Below are positions 30,301 through 43,823 of a stretch of 44,496 nucleotides of DNA, one piece after another. The stretch covers positions 1 to 44,496 of the IMG/VR virus record IMGVR_UViG_3300030107_005602, one strand, 5' to 3'. Both the position numbers and the translations under genes were made by a program. Source of the stretch: a virus. Position 1 is the stretch's first letter. Every line of letters starts with the position of its first letter. A model generated the notes under the pieces. It did not search any database. It saw only the letters and a program-made list of their open reading frames with translations, and was not told the origin of the DNA.

Positions 30301-33300
30301 CTGGACGTTGACTGGCTGCTGAGTCAGATGCCCAGTGGGTGGAACCCTGAGGGCTTGGACGTAGCGCACGCCAGGTATCTTTCTGAGCCTGGCGAGCAGT
30401 CAGCGGTAGTAGACCCTGACCTCGTTGACGAGGGCCGCATCAAGTCTCTTTGGGCCCGCAGGCCCAGGAAAGAAGGCCAGACATCCGGTCGCCTGAAGAA
30501 GGTTCCGGGTGGTTGGGTCCACACGATCCCTGGCAAGAACCCGACCACTGAAGACGGTGTCACTACCTGGGCCGTCGAGCCCATTGAGGGCGACTTCGTC
30601 ATCGACAGCATCGAGACTCTCCGGGCGTACTCCATCGCACTGGGTGTCATGTCCCGCATCCACCCCAACAAGGACAGCGCAGACATCGTTCGCTACGCCC
30701 AGCGGATGATCCGTGATCGCATGGAGGCCTGGGAGGTTCTTGCCCGGGGGGCAGCTAGTCGTTCGGCGCAGTATCGACGGGAGGCACTCGATCTAGTCAG
30801 AGAGCTAGACACCCTGAACGACTTGCCGGACAGAGGGCACGAGGTGGAGGGTCTGCTGTCTGCTATTGCTCGTGGCGAGCCAACGATTCAGAAGCTTTTC
30901 GAGGCCAGGTGGGGCGAGAAGGGCGCTCAGAAGTTTGAGCAGGCGAAGATCAAGGCCAACCAAGCGGTGAAGTCCGCGCAAGAGGCAGCCTTGATGCTGA
31001 CGTCTCAGACACCTCGGATCCACGCACGCTTGCGTGTTGCGATCCTGGTTAGCGAGGCGTTGCAGAACCAAGTGGAGATGCCTCAGTGGTTGCTGAACCA
31101 GGCAACCCAGATGAAGCTACTGGATGTCACTGCCGATGGCGGCTACCAGTTGCGAACAGGATCACTTGAAGCCATCCGTGCGGACATCCAGGTGTTCTCT
31201 CGCTTGGCTGAGATCCCGGACGATGTAGCGGGTGCTATGAGCGCGTGGTCGTACACGGATCACGCAGTCCCTGTTCCCTTGCTGGAACGGGCCATGGATT
31301 CGATTCCGGGTGCTCGTGGTGGCACTACGCAGAGTCGGTGGGAGAGCTTCATCGATGCGATCAACCCGCTCAAGTGGCCGGACCCGATGTGGGCCTGGAT
31401 CCCCAAGGCGATCAAGAACCCCATCATTGCGTCGGTCAACAGGATCGGTGGACTTCACTCTCCGTTCCGCAGCGAGCAAGCACTTGAAGGTGTAGGCGAA
31501 GGCATCAAGGCTGAGGAGAGATCTAGCTCTGACATGCTGGATGTCCGGGAAGCTGTCGTGAGGATGACCCGGGACATGGAGGAGTACCTCGCCCGGCCTG
31601 GAGTGACCCGAGACCACGCTCGCCTGCTGACGAAGATGATCCACAAGGGCGTCTTCCGCATGGTGACGGACAGGGCTGAGTTCATCCGTAGGTTCGAAGG
31701 GCTGGTAGGTGACGGGGCGGGTGCCTTGCACGACATCGCCATGCAGTACGTCACTGCATCGGATCTACTGGGCCAGAAGCTCGTTGACCTGGGCATGATG
31801 GATCAGGCCCAGTACGACAGGTGGAAGGGTGGCTACATCTACCAGCCACGACTGTCGAAGGACGAGATCAGCCAGAGGCTGAAAGAGCACAGCGGTACGT
31901 CGGTTACTCCGATCAAGACCAGTCAGTTGCTGTCTAGGACGGAGGAGCCCAGCGATGCCTTGTCACTGATGGACTTCACTGCCATCGCCCCACTGGGGCT
32001 GATGCGTGAGGCTGCCAACGTGCGGATGGCTCAGATGTTCTACTCGATCGCCAGGGACGGCTCTCGCACGCTGGTTCGTGCGGACAGTCTGGACCCGGAC
32101 GTTCTTGCTAGAGACTACGTGGTCTTCGCAGACCCCGACTCTGACAACTATGTGACAAGGGGCATGTGGTACTACCTGAACCAGATGCGGATGTCCCTGG
32201 ACCCGGTCACTGATGACAAGGGGGCCCCGATCCCTGACGGCAGCAAGATCAGAGAGCTACGGGCGAAGCTGGGCTTGGCCGAGGGCGTCTGGACGGGCAG
32301 GGGGGTCAGCGACCCCAAGAGCCCCTGGTTTGAGAACACAACGGTCGGTGGCAGCAAGCGGGCCGTGATGCCCGACGGGACCGTAAAGACGGTGGAGTCT
32401 CACGGTGGGGCCTTCCCGCGCAATGGGAAGATGGACAGGATGTTGGATGACCTGCTGTCATACGACACCGACCACTACATGGAGACTCTGTCGGCCAGCG
32501 GCAACACGACAGGGGAGATCCGCCCTACGTGGGTCATCGATACGAACACTCACGAGATGCTCCACAACATGTTGAACGACATGTACCGGGACAGCTCAGT
32601 GATGCAGCAGTCTGTACACGAGACCATCGCCATCTTCCGGCGGATGAAGACGTTGTACAGCCCCAAGCACTGGATCAAGAACTTCATTAGCAGTCCGATC
32701 TTGAACTGGACGTCAGGTGGCGTTGGCCTGCTGGACTTTGCTCGTGGCTTTGTTTTCAAGTCGGGGGACTACTACGAGTCGAACCGCCTTCTTGCTCTGT
32801 GGTCGGAGAGCTACAACCCGGAGCGACTGGCTGCGTTCAATGGTGACCGCAATGCCATGATTCGAAGCTGGACCCCGAGGCAGCGCGGGGACCTGGCCAC
32901 GGTCGAGGAGTACCTCAGCCTGTCTGGTGGCGCTACTGCTACGGGGGCGATCCTGGACCCCCTGACCGTCGAGAACCTGACCGACGGTCTGCTGAACGGA
33001 GAGGTCCGGGTAGAGGACTTGGTTTCTGGCAACCAAGCAGACAAGCACTTCGGTTACCTCGCCAAGCAGCTACAGAGGTTCGCTGGTAACCGGACGCTGG
33101 CTGCCAGGGCTCAGGACAAGATGTTTGACTCGGGTCAGCGTCGTGAGATCGCCAAGGCACTGCACTCAGTTTCTTCGGAGTACGCAACTACAGAGCACTT
33201 CTTCAAGCTGGCGAACGCCCTGCACCATGCGAGGAAGCGCAACATGCCCTGGCCCGATGCTGTCCGCTACGGTGCCAAGGGAACTGCTGACTACGCGGGT

Positions 33301-35064
33301 GTGGGCCAGCCGTTGAAGGAGTGGACGACGAACTGGCGCGGCGTGTGGGACCGGCCTGAGGCCCCTTGGTTCCAGAAGGAGAAGGGGCAGGAGGCTTGGT
33401 GGAGCAAGGAACGGCTTGGCATTCCGTTCGCTCGCTTCTACTTCGGAAACGTCTTCTGGATGTTCAACGCTGGGGCGCTACCGGCGCAGGTGCGGGGGGC
33501 GTTCACGCACCCTATGCGCGCAGCTTCTGCTACGGCGTTTGCTGCTAGTGCGGCCTACGCCCTCCAGAAGGCACTAGGCAACGACGACGAGGACGAGAAG
33601 GTTCGGGAGGCCCTGCACGAGGTGCATGGCATGGAGTCGTGGGCTGCCCTGGGCGAGGACGAGCTTCGGGAGATCCTGAACGAGCTTCGTGTGTTGATGG
33701 GTGGCGACAAGCAAGTGTCGTTCGCTGGTGGTGAGTACACGGATGACGTCGTGTCTGTGCTCGCTAGGCTGCTGTCCACTCAGCCGTTCCGTGGTGTCTC
33801 TGCTCCTAAGGGTGGGCGCTCCAGGGTGTTCAGCACGGAGGAACTGGCCCCGATGTCTGTGCGGGTGGCTATGAACGCCACGAACGGCATCGCATCTTTG
33901 AGCCAGGGGCACTTCCCGCGTGGCTCGGAGATGAAGTCTTGGATGCAGGGCTTCTTGCCTGCCTCGATCAAGGGGACCATTGGTTGGTACCAGGACTTGG
34001 TTGATCGCAGGAAGGGCGAGACCCTGAGCGAGCAGGCTGTGCGTGGAGCTATGGGGGCTGGGCGTCAGTTCGGTGCCATGTTCCACCCAGTGGCGATCCT
34101 GGGTGCCCCGGAACTGATCAAGGTCTACGAGGCGATGAACGGTCGTTCGATCTACGACATGGCCCGTGGCATCAGGACGCCGGACTGGGAGAACACTTCG
34201 ATTGGCACCCGCATGCTTGATGTGGGCATCAGCCAGGTGTTCCCGACCAAAACTGTCTACGCATTCCCAGCCGAGGTGGACACCCGTGAGTTTCTGTTGG
34301 CGAGCCGGGTGCTGGAGAACCTGCTGCCGGATCTCAAGACTCAGGTGGAGGGCACTCCCGAGGAACGCTTGCTCGCAAGGGCGATGCGTAACTCGATGGA
34401 GCAGATGATCAAGAATGCCAGAGACGCATACGAGGATCACTTCACGTACACGACTGCTCTTGGCGAAGGCGTGGCTGTCACCTTCGACCAGTTGTTGGTC
34501 TCCAGGTTCGACGTGACCAAGGACTTTGAGTACACCCCGATGGGGGAGCCCTATATCACGAACTTTCCTGTGACCGATACTGGTCGTTTTATCCGTGGTG
34601 CCCAAGCTGAAGATCCCATGTATGGATGGATGGTCCAACAGGCCAGCACCAAGATGATTCGGGACTACATCTTCAGGGACAAGAGGTACTACACCCTGCT
34701 TGAGATGGGTCGCAGGCGTATGCTGGATCCGTCCACCTTCGAGCTTGTTTTCAGGGGCATGATGGATGGCTCGAATAGTGATGTGCTCAAGCTGATCCAC
34801 AATAGGGTGGTAAAGCAGAAGGACACGACTAACTTCAAGGCCTTGTACCGTGTGTTCAACACAATCCCCGCAGATCAGGTGAGGGGTGTTCTGGGCCAGA
34901 GGTACGCTAGGGAGCTATACGAAGTGTTTGCTGCCAATGGCATGTTTGAGGATGTGACGGCTCCGAACATGCAGGATCTCGACTGGGTGTTTGGCTCCAA
35001 GAAGTGGAGCCTGCAGCCCCATCAAACCGTTTGGAACATGGGACTACCGAGAGGTAACAACTGA
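27376..35064 (+). CDS. Giant putative ejection protein with LPD38-like region, 2562 aa
   Basis: This is the largest gene and probably an internal virion protein delivered with the DNA. Residues about 1755-1800 (LYSPKHWIKNFISSPILNW) and 2010-2110 (RFYFGNVFWMFNAGALPAQV, then AYALQKALGNDDEDEKVREA) resemble LPD38, a domain of very large polyvalent phage and mobile-element proteins. No lysozyme or transglycosylase motif is obvious, unlike T7 gp16. Many segments are long helices. Hydrophobic Gly/Ala stretches occur near residues 340-375 (LQELGEYVGVAGIVSKVG) and 2045-2065. It is the last and largest of the three-gene ejection set and is coupled to the Lys-rich gene by TGATG. Residue positions are approximate. 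Confidence 0.6.
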   Translation: MTLLAQDEGFTSHTGLVYPKGWTVQKQADAYLKAYKGWQYSEALDDPEASAKARQAFGNLYEDTLLLMEHPNPQVQGFAAELLVNTQHDILRREAGEGPMSGSVAGTFRRNTGAAFDALSPVSSHTIGEDWGERFEAARSTAEFLNAGYQPMTKGWFSGSEDIKDSTTTKWTWGMLDPDAYWIPEEVASQDYSFDRTEMHYRSQLKMGERQVTPDGREYVVTNKGNVEIPTHVTGRDGVSYSIQDKANAIKFAQAGVNPEGPGSIIGDRGIIGSLWYDYGSDMVEGVHRDITFPGGEQWPFVPNITGDFELDRANLDNPAYRRALQDAAGDATFGARASLAGGAMLQELGEYVGVAGIVSKVGKGAKALFVGGRSADMARKARSMSKDRLGKPAVAGAQAATAAGRTHWKNGIPEFAKWSARDAVNEVALGIGQSMAEGGTVTEGVIKGTNEIIVEGVAKALGTGVRTPATWLGGRILGARVRDMRERARISRDDTMGAAQARIDFKTSGDLKELSDEIQKIVHDRAVVEWAKAVYDTSFMSLGLASQQVAMEQAYREGVDWQSLTIGEKASRIFGAVNDSYPEALGNWMAMMAGASPGMAQQFGSIKGYYRYQTDDGAQLQALLGTVTQLGEDRWADMTQEDMHSWVLGYGRMSDAALDEVLQQSLDPESGVTEDAPSPTDLSPVVQELAVILSATEGLAPTEAVQLAIEKLGEAGALANRGRLQEFQQTELTALRANYNPDADPHEVVPISASFGTRFLDPETGRAVATEQYQGQLPDNFRNVATFMGWIDEDGVLGGQGKWLHQALLHGDDTAKRIMAEATDLYVGVESPQEVARKESNIGHLMAGVRDKVQEIQSGRTALETDPKQKTEGYLKDTLSRLMHRVGSAAKSKMKQKSWLRPFREAMDGAPAFIAIPAIKKKLKALLPGKQKKGWDNIPRDEFGGKTANEMADAVYSKLSRYKRTGTTKATRMILDVDWLLSQMPSGWNPEGLDVAHARYLSEPGEQSAVVDPDLVDEGRIKSLWARRPRKEGQTSGRLKKVPGGWVHTIPGKNPTTEDGVTTWAVEPIEGDFVIDSIETLRAYSIALGVMSRIHPNKDSADIVRYAQRMIRDRMEAWEVLARGAASRSAQYRREALDLVRELDTLNDLPDRGHEVEGLLSAIARGEPTIQKLFEARWGEKGAQKFEQAKIKANQAVKSAQEAALMLTSQTPRIHARLRVAILVSEALQNQVEMPQWLLNQATQMKLLDVTADGGYQLRTGSLEAIRADIQVFSRLAEIPDDVAGAMSAWSYTDHAVPVPLLERAMDSIPGARGGTTQSRWESFIDAINPLKWPDPMWAWIPKAIKNPIIASVNRIGGLHSPFRSEQALEGVGEGIKAEERSSSDMLDVREAVVRMTRDMEEYLARPGVTRDHARLLTKMIHKGVFRMVTDRAEFIRRFEGLVGDGAGALHDIAMQYVTASDLLGQKLVDLGMMDQAQYDRWKGGYIYQPRLSKDEISQRLKEHSGTSVTPIKTSQLLSRTEEPSDALSLMDFTAIAPLGLMREAANVRMAQMFYSIARDGSRTLVRADSLDPDVLARDYVVFADPDSDNYVTRGMWYYLNQMRMSLDPVTDDKGAPIPDGSKIRELRAKLGLAEGVWTGRGVSDPKSPWFENTTVGGSKRAVMPDGTVKTVESHGGAFPRNGKMDRMLDDLLSYDTDHYMETLSASGNTTGEIRPTWVIDTNTHEMLHNMLNDMYRDSSVMQQSVHETIAIFRRMKTLYSPKHWIKNFISSPILNWTSGGVGLLDFARGFVFKSGDYYESNRLLALWSESYNPERLAAFNGDRNAMIRSWTPRQRGDLATVEEYLSLSGGATATGAILDPLTVENLTDGLLNGEVRVEDLVSGNQADKHFGYLAKQLQRFAGNRTLAARAQDKMFDSGQRREIAKALHSVSSEYATTEHFFKLANALHHARKRNMPWPDAVRYGAKGTADYAGVGQPLKEWTTNWRGVWDRPEAPWFQKEKGQEAWWSKERLGIPFARFYFGNVFWMFNAGALPAQVRGAFTHPMRAASATAFAASAAYALQKALGNDDEDEKVREALHEVHGMESWAALGEDELREILNELRVLMGGDKQVSFAGGEYTDDVVSVLARLLSTQPFRGVSAPKGGRSRVFSTEELAPMSVRVAMNATNGIASLSQGHFPRGSEMKSWMQGFLPASIKGTIGWYQDLVDRRKGETLSEQAVRGAMGAGRQFGAMFHPVAILGAPELIKVYEAMNGRSIYDMARGIRTPDWENTSIGTRMLDVGISQVFPTKTVYAFPAEVDTREFLLASRVLENLLPDLKTQVEGTPEERLLARAMRNSMEQMIKNARDAYEDHFTYTTALGEGVAVTFDQLLVSRFDVTKDFEYTPMGEPYITNFPVTDTGRFIRGAQAEDPMYGWMVQQASTKMIRDYIFRDKRYYTLLEMGRRRMLDPSTFELVFRGMMDGSNSDVLKLIHNRVVKQKDTTNFKALYRVFNTIPADQVRGVLGQRYARELYEVFAANGMFEDVTAPNMQDLDWVFGSKKWSLQPHQTVWNMGLPRGNN

Positions 35065-39032: not shown

Positions 39033-39064
39033 AAAAGGCCGCTACGATGCGTAGCGGCCTTTTT
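39033..39064. terminator. Bidirectional terminator between convergent units
   Basis: AAAAGGCCGCTACG (39033-39046) and CGTAGCGGCCTTTT (39050-39063) are perfect complements around a three-base loop. The A-tract and T-tract make it functional on both strands. It backs up the terminator at 38905 for plus-strand transcripts and ends the minus-strand operon. The last codons and the stop of the gene at 39042-39269 lie inside the hairpin. Confidence 0.88.
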
Positions 39065-40497: not shown

Positions 40498-40559
40498 GGC
40501 CGGGACGTAGGGGGGAGTGCTTCTGAGGGGGGCTCGACCGAAGCACTTACGTCCCGGCC
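40498..40559. other. 62-nt nested hairpin between two accessory genes
   Basis: GGCCGGGACGTA (40498-40509) is the perfect complement of TACGTCCCGGCC (40548-40559). Inside, AGTGCTTC (40516-40523) pairs with GAAGCACT (40540-40547). A one-sided GGGGGG bulge (40510-40515) separates the helices, and the 16-base loop contains another G6 run. There is no T-tract on either strand, so it is not a standard terminator. In the minus-strand mRNA it starts inside the last codons of the 204-aa gene and forms part of the leader of the 116-aa gene. Confidence 0.7.
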
Positions 40560-41161: not shown

Positions 41162-41187
41162 GTTTTGCGGTGAACTGCGAAAGCGAG

Positions 41188-41209
41188 CGAGCCGCCGGAA
41201 GGCGGCTCG
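41188..41209. other. GNRA-type hairpin between two accessory genes
   Basis: CGAGCCGCC (41188-41196) pairs with GGCGGCTCG (41201-41209) around a GGAA loop, a stable tetraloop on the plus strand. It occupies the gap between the stop of the 69-aa gene (41216) and the ATG of the 204-aa gene (41161). No strong T-tract follows on either strand. It may act as a processing or attenuation site. Confidence 0.6.
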
Positions 41210-41215
41210 TTCAGC

Positions 41216-41425
41216 CTAAAAACCTCTAACTTGCTCAATCGCGGAAACGTCACCAGTCACGTTGACGACGAGCATCCCGTCATAGTCAAGGCGGGCCACC
41301 TCCCAAGAGATATCTCTTAGAAGTGGGGAACCGAAAGCGCACTCTGCCAAAAAGGCCAGCGCACCTTTCAGGTCCTTGTCAATAAACTCGGCAGGGTGAA
41401 TGCGAGTCTCGCGGGTTTCGTACAT
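41216..41425 (-). CDS. Unknown protein, 69 aa
   Basis: No family recognised. An excellent ribosome-binding site (AGGAGA, seven bases before ATG 41425) supports it. The protein is a small alpha/beta candidate: a helix (PAEFIDKDLKGALAFLAECA) and a beta hairpin (SWEVARLDYDGMLVVNVTG), ending IEQVRGF. It is the first gene downstream of the structured non-coding region, so its expression may depend on that region. It may head the operon that continues with the 204-aa HTH gene. Confidence 0.65.
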   Translation of the reverse strand: MYETRETRIHPAEFIDKDLKGALAFLAECAFGSPLLRDISWEVARLDYDGMLVVNVTGDVSAIEQVRGF

Positions 41426-41482
41426 GTCTTCTCCTGACGTGATAGGGCTTGAGGTTTACGTGAAGGGTTCTCGTTGTAAGGT

Positions 41483-41950
41483 GATCGGCCTTGGTGCGTC
41501 CACCAGGCCGATCTGTTCCGCTGTGCTGATGCACTCCGAAGTTAGCTAGTTTCGGTGGCGCTGATGAGATGGGCTCATCTGCTGCCCCATGCTGGTAACA
41601 CAACTAAAAACCCAGCATGTTTGCGTGCATCACCAAAGGAGCGGAACAATCCCTTGGCGCATACCCTGCTTCTTGAGGGTGATGTGAAGGCCTTATTGAA
41701 GCAGGGCTTGATAGGGCACCCCCCTGCATGAACTTCAGGAGGGTGCTGCTTGCGTTGCGGGGGAGACTGAGGAACACCCCTACCTCACACGAGGCACACA
41801 AGCAGGGATGCGTTCAGGATGGGTCGTATTATCCCGTTCTGAACTCATCCCTGTAGTTAGGTTGGGGAGGGGCCCCAGGTGTGACCTTCCAGACTTACCC
41901 CTCCCCCCCTCTCTCTACTATGTACCCCTACATGGCTTATTGAGAGAGGG
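41483..41950. other. Non-coding region with a series of inverted repeats
   Basis: No convincing gene occupies 41426-41955. Inverted repeats follow each other: 41483-41496/41501-41513 (GATCGGCC..TGGTG/CACCAGGCCGATC, one bulged base); 41536-41540/41551-41555; 41563-41568/41574-41579; 41588-41595/41612-41619 (CATGCTGG/CCAGCATG); 41664-41672/41698-41706 (CCCTGCTTC/GAAGCAGGG); 41716-41726/41736-41746; 41803-41823/41833-41853 (CAGGGATG..CATCCCTG, about 18 bp with one mismatch and wobble pairs); 41864-41872/41898-41906 (GGGGAGGGG/CCCCTCCCC, with AGGT/ACCT inside); and 41907-41915/41942-41950 (CCCTCTCTC/GAGAGAGGG, with ATGTA/TACAT inside). None has a terminator T-tract. Candidates are a structured RNA, a replication origin or a packaging signal. 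Confidence 0.7.
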
Positions 41951-41955
41951 TTTAC

Positions 41956-42186
41956 TTATAGAGTGACACCCACTTCTGCGGCGTATTTTTGGAGGTACTC
42001 TAGCCATTGGGAATCCGCAGTCTCTTCTAGGTGCTCGTACCAGTAGGTTCCTAGATTGTGCTCCATGATTGCCACAATCGTATCGAAGAAGTCATCAGCG
42101 GAGGGTTGCTCCTCCATGAGGATGCGGAGTTGGCGGAAGATCCGCATTTGGGATAGATTTAGGTCTCTTTCAGTGTCTAGCGACAT
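41956..42186 (-). CDS. Unknown acidic helical protein, 76 aa
   Basis: No family recognised. It is helical and acidic throughout (DLNLSQMRIFRQLRILMEEQ, then SADDFFDTIVAIMEHNLG) and ends in a Tyr/Trp-rich stretch (TYWYEHLEETADSQWLEYLQ). Small acidic helical phage proteins often act as inhibitors or DNA mimics, but nothing here proves it. No ribosome-binding site is seen before ATG 42186. It lies between the structured region and the putative 23-aa peptide gene. Confidence 0.55.
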   Translation of the reverse strand: MSLDTERDLNLSQMRIFRQLRILMEEQPSADDFFDTIVAIMEHNLGTYWYEHLEETADSQWLEYLQKYAAEVGVTL

Positions 42187-42353: not shown

Positions 42354-43823
42354 TTAGTCCCTGGTGTCTCCCGTGATGGGTGCTGTGATGATTTCGTGGG
42401 TCTTGCGACCTGCGAGAGAGGCAAAGGCTGTGGTGACGTTGCGAACGATAGTCTCTACGTCTTGCTCTTCTGCAGAGAGTTCCTCTTTGGGCTCCAGCAG
42501 TCTCAGGTGTTCTTCGAGGCTGTTGGCTGCGATCTTGAGGGATTCCGCATCGATAGTGGAGGTGCACTTGTTGGTGATGTTCACCAGCTTGGCACGACGG
42601 ACGCATTCTGCGATGGATGCAGGGATGCGGCCTTGTAGGATTTGTCCGACCTCCGTGATGTCTTCGGTCGGTTCAAGGTCGTCTCCTGCGTACTTCCTTA
42701 CCAGTCGCTCTACGGTTTCTGAGTCGGGGGCTGGGAACTCAAGGATGAGGTCCATGCGTCCTTGTCGTAGAACTGCAGGGTTGATCCGGTCGAGGTGGTT
42801 GGTGGTCATGATGGTCATGACCTCGCACCCTTTGCTAGTCAAGCCATCGAGTTCGTTGATGATCTCGTTGGCTTTCTCGTCTCGGTTGTCTAGGAACTGA
42901 TCCACATCCTCACAGAAGACTACGGCTGGCTCGTAGCGGCGGGCGAGCTTGCTGATTGTCAGCATGTTCTTGGGGTTGTCTACGTAGAAGAACGTCCAGC
43001 CGTTCTGGTTGGCTTTGTTCGCAGCGACCATGGCACATAGCGTTTTGCCCGTGCCGTAGGAGCCGTGGAGCAGGGAGCCTCGGTTTAGGGTGATGCCGAA
43101 GCCCCTGCAGGTGTCAGCGTTTTCGATGGGCCCGAGGATGAGGGCTTGCACGATCTCTGCGCTGTGTTTCGGGAGAATGAGGTCTTCGGCATGTGCCTTA
43201 GATACGTCCAGGAATTCCGGGGGGTGGTTCGGGTCCAGTCCTCCGTCCTCGTTGGTCCTGACCGTGATGGACTTGCCTTTATAGATCGAGTTCTCTTTGA
43301 GCCATTCACGTAGCTCTTGGGCCACTTCGTCAATCTCTGCCCTTTGCCCTGCCGGGATATTGCCCACGAGGAGGAACTTCACGTTGTTGTCCTCCTGGAT
43401 CATCTTCGTCTCGAAGGTGCCGCCAGTGATGTTGGGGATGGCAAATTGGCCCCAGATGACTTGCTCGTAGTCGTGGAGTCCAGGACCCGTCTGGATCCTA
43501 CGGATCTCGGGAGCTACCTCGCTCGTCCCAAAGAAGCTCTGCATCTTCTTCGGCTCGCTGACTGCGTATCCGTATCGAGCCTTGAGGACCTTGTGCATTC
43601 CGTAGGCACCTTCGAGCGGCCATGCTTCGAAGGTGTATCGGACGTCCATCCTTGTGGCCTCTTCCTCCATGACATGCTGGAGGTGGCGGATGGCGTTCTT
43701 CTTGGACATGCCCTTGGGCAGGATGATCTCTTGGGTTGTACCCTCCTTGATTGCAGCCTCTTGGCGGCTGAGGTTGTCTGCGGCCTTGGTGATGTTCTTC
43801 AGGAGTTCGATTGTGTCTGACAT
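42354..43823 (-). CDS. AAA+ ATPase of the Cdc48/FtsH type, 489 aa
   Basis: Probable ATP-driven remodelling or unfolding ring. Walker A is GSYGTGKT near residues 254-261. Walker B is VVFCEDVD near 299-306. Sensor 1 is TIMTTNHLD near 340, and NPAVLRQGRMDLILEFPAPD near 348-367 is the second region of homology with the arginine finger, in the RxGRxD form of classical AAA proteins. The C-terminal lid runs from about 370 to 440. The first 240 residues are a family-specific domain (FEAWPLEGAYGMHKVLKARY, then TGPGLHDYEQVIWGQFAIP). There is no protease (HEXXH), nuclease or helicase domain, so it must act with a partner. No replicative helicase or clamp loader resembles it. Confidence 0.85.
   Translation of the reverse strand: MSDTIELLKNITKAADNLSRQEAAIKEGTTQEIILPKGMSKKNAIRHLQHVMEEEATRMDVRYTFEAWPLEGAYGMHKVLKARYGYAVSEPKKMQSFFGTSEVAPEIRRIQTGPGLHDYEQVIWGQFAIPNITGGTFETKMIQEDNNVKFLLVGNIPAGQRAEIDEVAQELREWLKENSIYKGKSITVRTNEDGGLDPNHPPEFLDVSKAHAEDLILPKHSAEIVQALILGPIENADTCRGFGITLNRGSLLHGSYGTGKTLCAMVAANKANQNGWTFFYVDNPKNMLTISKLARRYEPAVVFCEDVDQFLDNRDEKANEIINELDGLTSKGCEVMTIMTTNHLDRINPAVLRQGRMDLILEFPAPDSETVERLVRKYAGDDLEPTEDITEVGQILQGRIPASIAECVRRAKLVNITNKCTSTIDAESLKIAANSLEEHLRLLEPKEELSAEEQDVETIVRNVTTAFASLAGRKTHEIITAPITGDTRD

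Follow-up and report, generated by a model that had tools for sequence, protein, structure and literature searches.

A 530-nt block of consecutive hairpins without a convincing gene in the early operon of an uncultured phage

The analysed window comprises bases 1-44,496 of a 49,171-base IMG/VR record of an uncultured phage, to which the remaining 4.7 kb of the record was added; all positions below are those of the record unless a contig is named. A run of 10 N at 44497-44506, just past the window, marks the record as a scaffold with a gap at that point. The late genes are oriented rightward, up to ~35 kb, and the early genes leftward, from ~48.1 to 35.6 kb. Within the early region, a gap of 530 nt (41426-41955; 55% G+C, without an AT-rich stretch) is bounded by two small leftward genes. 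The upstream neighbour is a 76-aa ORF (41956-42186, minus strand) with coding-like codon usage, and the downstream neighbour is a 69-aa ORF (41216-41425, minus strand); neither has a family match. An AAA ATPase gene (42354-43823, minus strand; PHROG 10440, Pfam AAA) lies further upstream, which places the gap between the AAA-ATPase module and a downstream small-gene, Erf and RecE recombination module. The flanking genes all share a strand, and a Shine-Dalgarno sequence of its own precedes the next start codon. Among the early genes scanned (35638-48148), RecE-, Erf-, RusA-like and ATPase families were matched, and no family match to a DNA polymerase, primase or helicase was found, in which the phage differs from its portal relatives Jasmine and Shocker. 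The first-pass annotation described a genome in which most genes overlap; the early genes mostly do not.

An ordinary protein gene in the gap is unlikely. Its ORFs have codon-usage scores between -0.01 and -0.38 bits per codon, and +0.005 is the upper limit for any stop-free frame; eight of the nine leftward genes of 35.6-44.3 kb score between +0.12 and +0.40. Scores near zero are also found in real genes (-0.01 for the flanking 69-aa gene, -0.09 to +0.02 for three genes of 45.8-48.1 kb), and the test therefore rejects the gap frames only weakly. The ORFs begin with GTG or TTG or are without a ribosome-binding site, and none combines coding-like codon usage with a start that has such a site. 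The first-pass annotation had found no convincing ORF in 41426-41955, the frames starting with TTG or lacking a ribosome-binding site, and this description holds, coordinates included, with GTG added to the starts. No conserved protein was seen across the region.

An excess of structure in 41426-41955 is established. Perfect stems of 9 bp or longer, with loops of no more than 40 nt, number four in the gap; 1000 dinucleotide-shuffled copies average 0.07 and never have more than 2. Folding of both strands against shuffled sequence, a check proposed with the first-pass annotation, gave minimum-free-energy z-scores of -8.9 on the plus strand and -8.4 on the minus strand, and of -7.6 and -7.2 once the start-codon end was left out. 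Relative to other windows of 530 nt and equal G+C from this phage, the gap lies at -4.2 (plus) and -3.7 (minus) standard deviations. It ranks second among 2,161 windows of 500 nt from 16 phage genomes, most of which are distant portal relatives. It is unlikely that the structure arose by chance.

The ORF-free intercistronic block (41426-41955, assigned to the minus strand of the surrounding operon) is composed of seven hairpins and a four-way-junction domain of ~135 nt. This amounts to at least nine helices in a row, in agreement with the nine or more consecutive inverted repeats first noticed there. Read leftward, the block starts with HP1 (41907-41950, minus strand), a 9-bp perfect stem whose 26-nt loop holds an inner helix and begins with AATAAG on the minus strand. 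It is directly adjoined by HP2 (41864-41906, minus strand), also a 9-bp perfect stem with an inner helix in its loop; the pair had been correctly recognized as abutting nested hairpins. HP3 (41803-41853, no strand assigned) is the longest hairpin. The stem annotated here is present; its count of 18 bp becomes 20 pairs on the plus strand (two of them G-U) and 17 on the minus strand. HP4 (41746-41805, minus strand) is a weaker long-loop stem with 10-nt arms that are 90% complementary, and it competes with the base of HP3. HP5 (41716-41746, no strand assigned) has an 11-bp stem, uninterrupted only on the minus strand (one G-U). In the linker between HP5 and HP6 lies a motif copy, GCCCTATCA (41709-41717, minus strand), followed by HP6 (41664-41706, minus strand), which has a 9-bp perfect stem and a 25-nt loop starting with AATAAG on the minus strand.

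The four-way-junction domain (41514-41648, no strand assigned) had been overlooked. It is closed by helices 41514-41522/41640-41648 and 41527-41534/41625-41632, and folding places hairpins at 41536-41555, 41557-41586 and 41588-41619 within it. HP10 (41483-41513, no strand assigned) follows, a hairpin of 13 bp in which one base is bulged and the loop is 4 nt long; it is the near-perfect stem of the first description. Below HP10, a mostly unpaired linker of ~57 nt carries the 13-mer AGCCCTATCACGT (41437-41449, minus strand), located between the block and the Shine-Dalgarno sequence of the 69-aa gene, then that sequence itself, AGGAG (41431-41435, minus strand, read directly), and the ATG at 41425. 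No T-tract follows any hairpin in 41426-41955, so that T-tract (rho-independent) terminators are rejected, stacked or otherwise, as had been argued from the first reading. Promoter-like sites beyond chance were not found at the block.

HP1 and HP6 can be compared with each other. Their lengths are 44 and 43 nt, each has a 9-bp stem, the loops are of near-equal length, and CAATAAG, read on the minus strand, occurs only at these two hairpins in the whole record. The HP1 stem (CCCTCTCTC/GAGAGAGGG) and the HP6 stem (CCCTGCTTC/GAAGCAGGG) differ at three positions, each of which is compensated. HP2 has the same stem length and a 25-nt loop that starts with TAAG on the minus strand. The resemblance of HP1 and HP6, with HP2, to a hairpin family kept by pairing is suggestive only, as it was spotted post hoc and a shared 6-nt loop start has, by rough estimate and given the large number of hairpins, a few percent probability of arising by chance.

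Evidence from G-U pairs for one functional strand is mixed, and the z-scores do not tell the strands apart. The plus strand gives better pairing for HP3 (with its two G-U pairs), HP1, HP6 and the small hairpin of the junction, the minus strand for HP5 and HP4; HP2, HP10 and an 8-bp stem do not discriminate. In sum, folding is somewhat better on the plus strand.

A second ORF-free structured block is present at the right end of the record, outside the window (48149-48749; L002 4149-4749; z = -9.8 on the plus strand), where ~1 kb is without a convincing gene (48149-49171; L002 4149-5172). Within an outer stem of 14 bp, this block holds an inverted repeat of 24 nt. It also has one clear and strong intrinsic terminator, which points leftward and consists of the stem CGTCGGGC AGA GCCCGACG (L002 4595-4613) followed by T9. 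Exactly two copies of AGCCCTATCACGT exist in the record, at 41437-41449 and 48171-48183. Each of them separates a structured block from the leftward gene that follows, whose ATG ends at 41425 in one case and at 48148 in the other. The core of this motif, CCCTATCA(C), is asymmetric and has 11 copies on the minus strand (38882, 41440, 41709, 44374, 45548, 46232, 46982, 47538, 47652, 48174 and 48760) and none on the plus strand, all in the early half. Some of these sites immediately precede start codons, one immediately follows a stop codon, and several are within genes. The core is probably a signal for protein binding or expression. Because other copies of the core lie inside genes, AGCCCTATCACGT need not belong to the blocks.

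Comparable asymmetric repeats are known from mycobacteriophages. The start-associated SAS and ESAS of cluster K are short asymmetric repeats with a 13-bp sequence, GGGATAGGAGCCC, a few nucleotides before starts (PMC3203893). The present motif is likewise asymmetric, kept in one orientation, confined to the non-structural half and in some copies found just before starts. It differs in sequence, CCCTATCAC being without an AGGAG core, and in having several copies in genes; with a few of the 11 core copies before starts, it does not belong to SAS/ESAS. The stems of the present hairpins are long and perfect, unlike the conserved 17-bp inverted repeat of the mycobacteriophage system. In cluster A, stoperators are asymmetric repressor-bound sites with one orientation relative to transcription (PMC9283540). 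The strand bias of the core (11 copies to none) and its restriction to the early half are reminiscent of these sites; no repressor was identified in this phage.

By the sequences compared, the phage is isolated among its known relatives. Its portal and capsid relatives are phages of Arthrobacter, Microbacterium and Cellulosimicrobium, at 20-30% identity, and an alignment-based IMG/VR scan with the AAA protein gave 80 relatives at 29-40% identity. The sole close IMG/VR relative is a 5.5-kb contig (portal 71%) from which the region is absent. In the terminase of this contig, an in-frame, intein-like insertion of ~770 nt (L200 ~740-1514) begins with CYNPAMKIL and ends with VAEGLASHN; it is absent from the window phage.

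No relative of the region was found in Rfam, in 50,697 phage records, in related IMG/VR records or with a covariance model. Over the window, Rfam gave no match at the gathering threshold; with E relaxed to 10, it returned only chance miRNA-like matches far below the cut-off. Comparison of the region and the surrounding 3.5 kb with INPHARED by blastn returned no homologue, and no homologue of the block came from IMG/VR scans in which the AAA, 76-aa and RecE proteins were each used singly, from a terminase C-terminal scan or from a GTDB genome scan. Direct DNA search of 49 IMG/VR records also gave none; the best match, of 19 nt, has no hairpin at its site and is taken as chance. A covariance model of the junction domain had no match in 46 records. 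The combination of the motif, a Shine-Dalgarno sequence and ATG was met in two IMG/VR contigs, where the stretch lies inside an unrelated gene and is likewise attributed to chance.

Structured early gaps without sequence similarity do occur in distant relatives. Cellulosimicrobium phage DS1, a distant portal relative, has an equally strong one of ~380 nt (33292-33670) with 21- and 22-nt inverted repeats and with fewer and longer hairpins than the present block; a weaker gap of this kind is present in Jasmine. Such gaps therefore recur in the group. A 536-nt gap in G044 (z = -8.3) was not counted as a parallel, since its first ~175 nt look coding. In DS1, a separate intergenic early-region gap contains a match to the Pistol ribozyme (L175 31635-31704, minus strand; 66 bits, E = 1.5e-9).

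The finding is sound, yet orphan. The best candidate reading, to which we give somewhat less than even odds, is that the block is an untranslated, highly folded, cis-acting leader-type RNA segment of the leftward early transcript. We infer that the block is transcribed and that it works as RNA, in cis. During transcription, the chain of hairpins, the four-way-junction domain and the terminal hairpin would fold while RNA polymerase moved through the block, followed by the mostly unpaired linker with AGCCCTATCACGT, the Shine-Dalgarno sequence and the start codon. Such a structured intercistronic leader might set the output of the downstream genes in cis, through the processing and stability of the RNA, through elongation or through ribosome entry. 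This reading is favoured because the two blocks share the same junction, AGCCCTATCACGT, to the downstream gene. Further points in its favour are the excess of structure with its nested multi-branch topology, the lack of coding-like codon usage in any frame, the single orientation of the flanking genes, the Shine-Dalgarno sequence at the next start codon and, as suggestive support, the likeness of HP1 and HP6. The failure to find a homologue, and with it any covariation between genomes, the mixed strand evidence and the lack of promoter-like sites beyond chance count against it. The put RNA of phage HK022 suppresses termination as part of the nascent early transcript. It is ~70 nt long and has no more than two stem-loops, together with a triple helix (PMC9378689). 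The block resembles it in having abutting stem-loops, HP1 and HP2 adjoining directly, in a presumed early leftward transcript; it is 7 times longer, with a different overall anatomy.

A wider proposal, which we consider fairly unlikely, would make the two ORF-free blocks an undescribed class of early-operon RNA. Its members would consist of hairpins in a modular chain together with a junction domain, be joined by a phage-specific motif to the downstream gene, and control early expression or build a large assembly, either ribonucleoprotein or RNA. Few large structured RNAs are known from phages, and most of them have no established function. With over 500 nt of the early operon given to hairpins, and the design used again at the right end with the same junction, this compact phage would offer a clear case for testing function on one block.

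The block could instead be a stand-alone large non-coding RNA acting in trans, released from the early transcript by cleavage or expressed from a separate promoter on either strand, a reading that is conceivable although doubtful. The ~470 structured nucleotides in ORF-free space and the multi-domain fold would fit, as would the somewhat better summed folding of the plus strand, and such RNAs are known in phages. A palindrome, UAGCUA, in one junction loop could form a kissing dimer and may be due to chance. GOLLD and ROOL are ORF-free phage RNAs of roughly 0.5-0.9 kb with many helices and multi-branch junctions (PMC12286853). The block is similarly ORF-free, phage-borne and rich in helices, with a multi-branch junction. 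It differs in that neither a homologue nor a covariance-model match at a useful score was found; it falls outside the covariance models of GOLLD, ROOL, OLE and the other Rfam families. Most GOLLD and ROOL loci have tRNA genes nearby, whereas ARAGORN found no tRNA in the window. A further mark of these families is a discrete transcript that builds up during lytic growth. A tRNA/tmRNA cluster, a group I or II intron and a known ribozyme were rejected for lack of an ARAGORN or Rfam match. In phage ICP1, an ORF-less transcript of ~800 nt between gp139 and gp140 is the most abundant by RNA-seq (PMC7567579); the likeness is that of a large ORF-less space in a phage genome. A stand-alone RNA is further disfavoured by the gap having neither a promoter-like site beyond chance nor a terminator, and by the absence of Rfam matches beyond chance, at the gathering threshold as well as with E relaxed to 10.

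A DNA-level element is quite unlikely. Extruded or single-strand hairpins would here serve as a replication start, a recombination site or a protein-binding array, RNA folding being incidental. Structure equally strong on both strands is what would be expected if the symmetry of the DNA were kept, and an asymmetric repeat has copies within the block and next to it. The lack of a polymerase, primase or helicase match in the scanned early genes makes an unusual replication start conceivable, and a DNA-level role would bear on how replication starts in a phage without a recognised polymerase. Against this, G-U pairs occur in stems on either strand, the four-way junction is nested within longer closing helices, no iterons or direct-repeat arrays were found, and at 55% G+C there is no AT-rich stretch. 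A packaging site, suggested in the first-pass annotation beside a structured RNA, a replication origin and a recombination site, is unlikely because the terminase genes are at the other end, ~37 kb from the block. An RNA function is likelier than one at the DNA level on account of the nested multi-branch topology, the position inside an operon and the second block with the same 13-mer.

That the hairpins are operon punctuation only, either U-tract-free (factor-dependent) terminators or RNase III sites and mRNA-stabilising hairpins, is very unlikely. U-tract-free terminators are often proposed in high-G+C actinobacteria, the hosts of the portal relatives, and single hairpins without T-tracts occupy other early gaps (40498-40559, 41185-41212). 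At least nine helices in a row with a four-way junction nevertheless exceed the needs of punctuation, and genes go on along the same strand beyond the block. That the block is an insertion, decayed or orphan, with no function today, or an unrecognised divergent protein gene is scarcely credible: no search gave a relative, and the ORFs have GTG or TTG starts or no ribosome-binding site, but the stems are too perfect for a long-decayed element and no frame has coding-like codon usage, though several real genes are near zero too.

The intergenic hairpin at 40498-40559 is two-tiered, with a 12-bp perfect stem and an inner 8-bp helix within its 38-nt loop, and the early intergenic gap at 41185-41212 has a single hairpin. 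Between early genes at 39033-39063, a 14-bp perfect hairpin (AAAAGGCCGCTACG/CGTAGCGGCCTTTT) is likely a bidirectional terminator.
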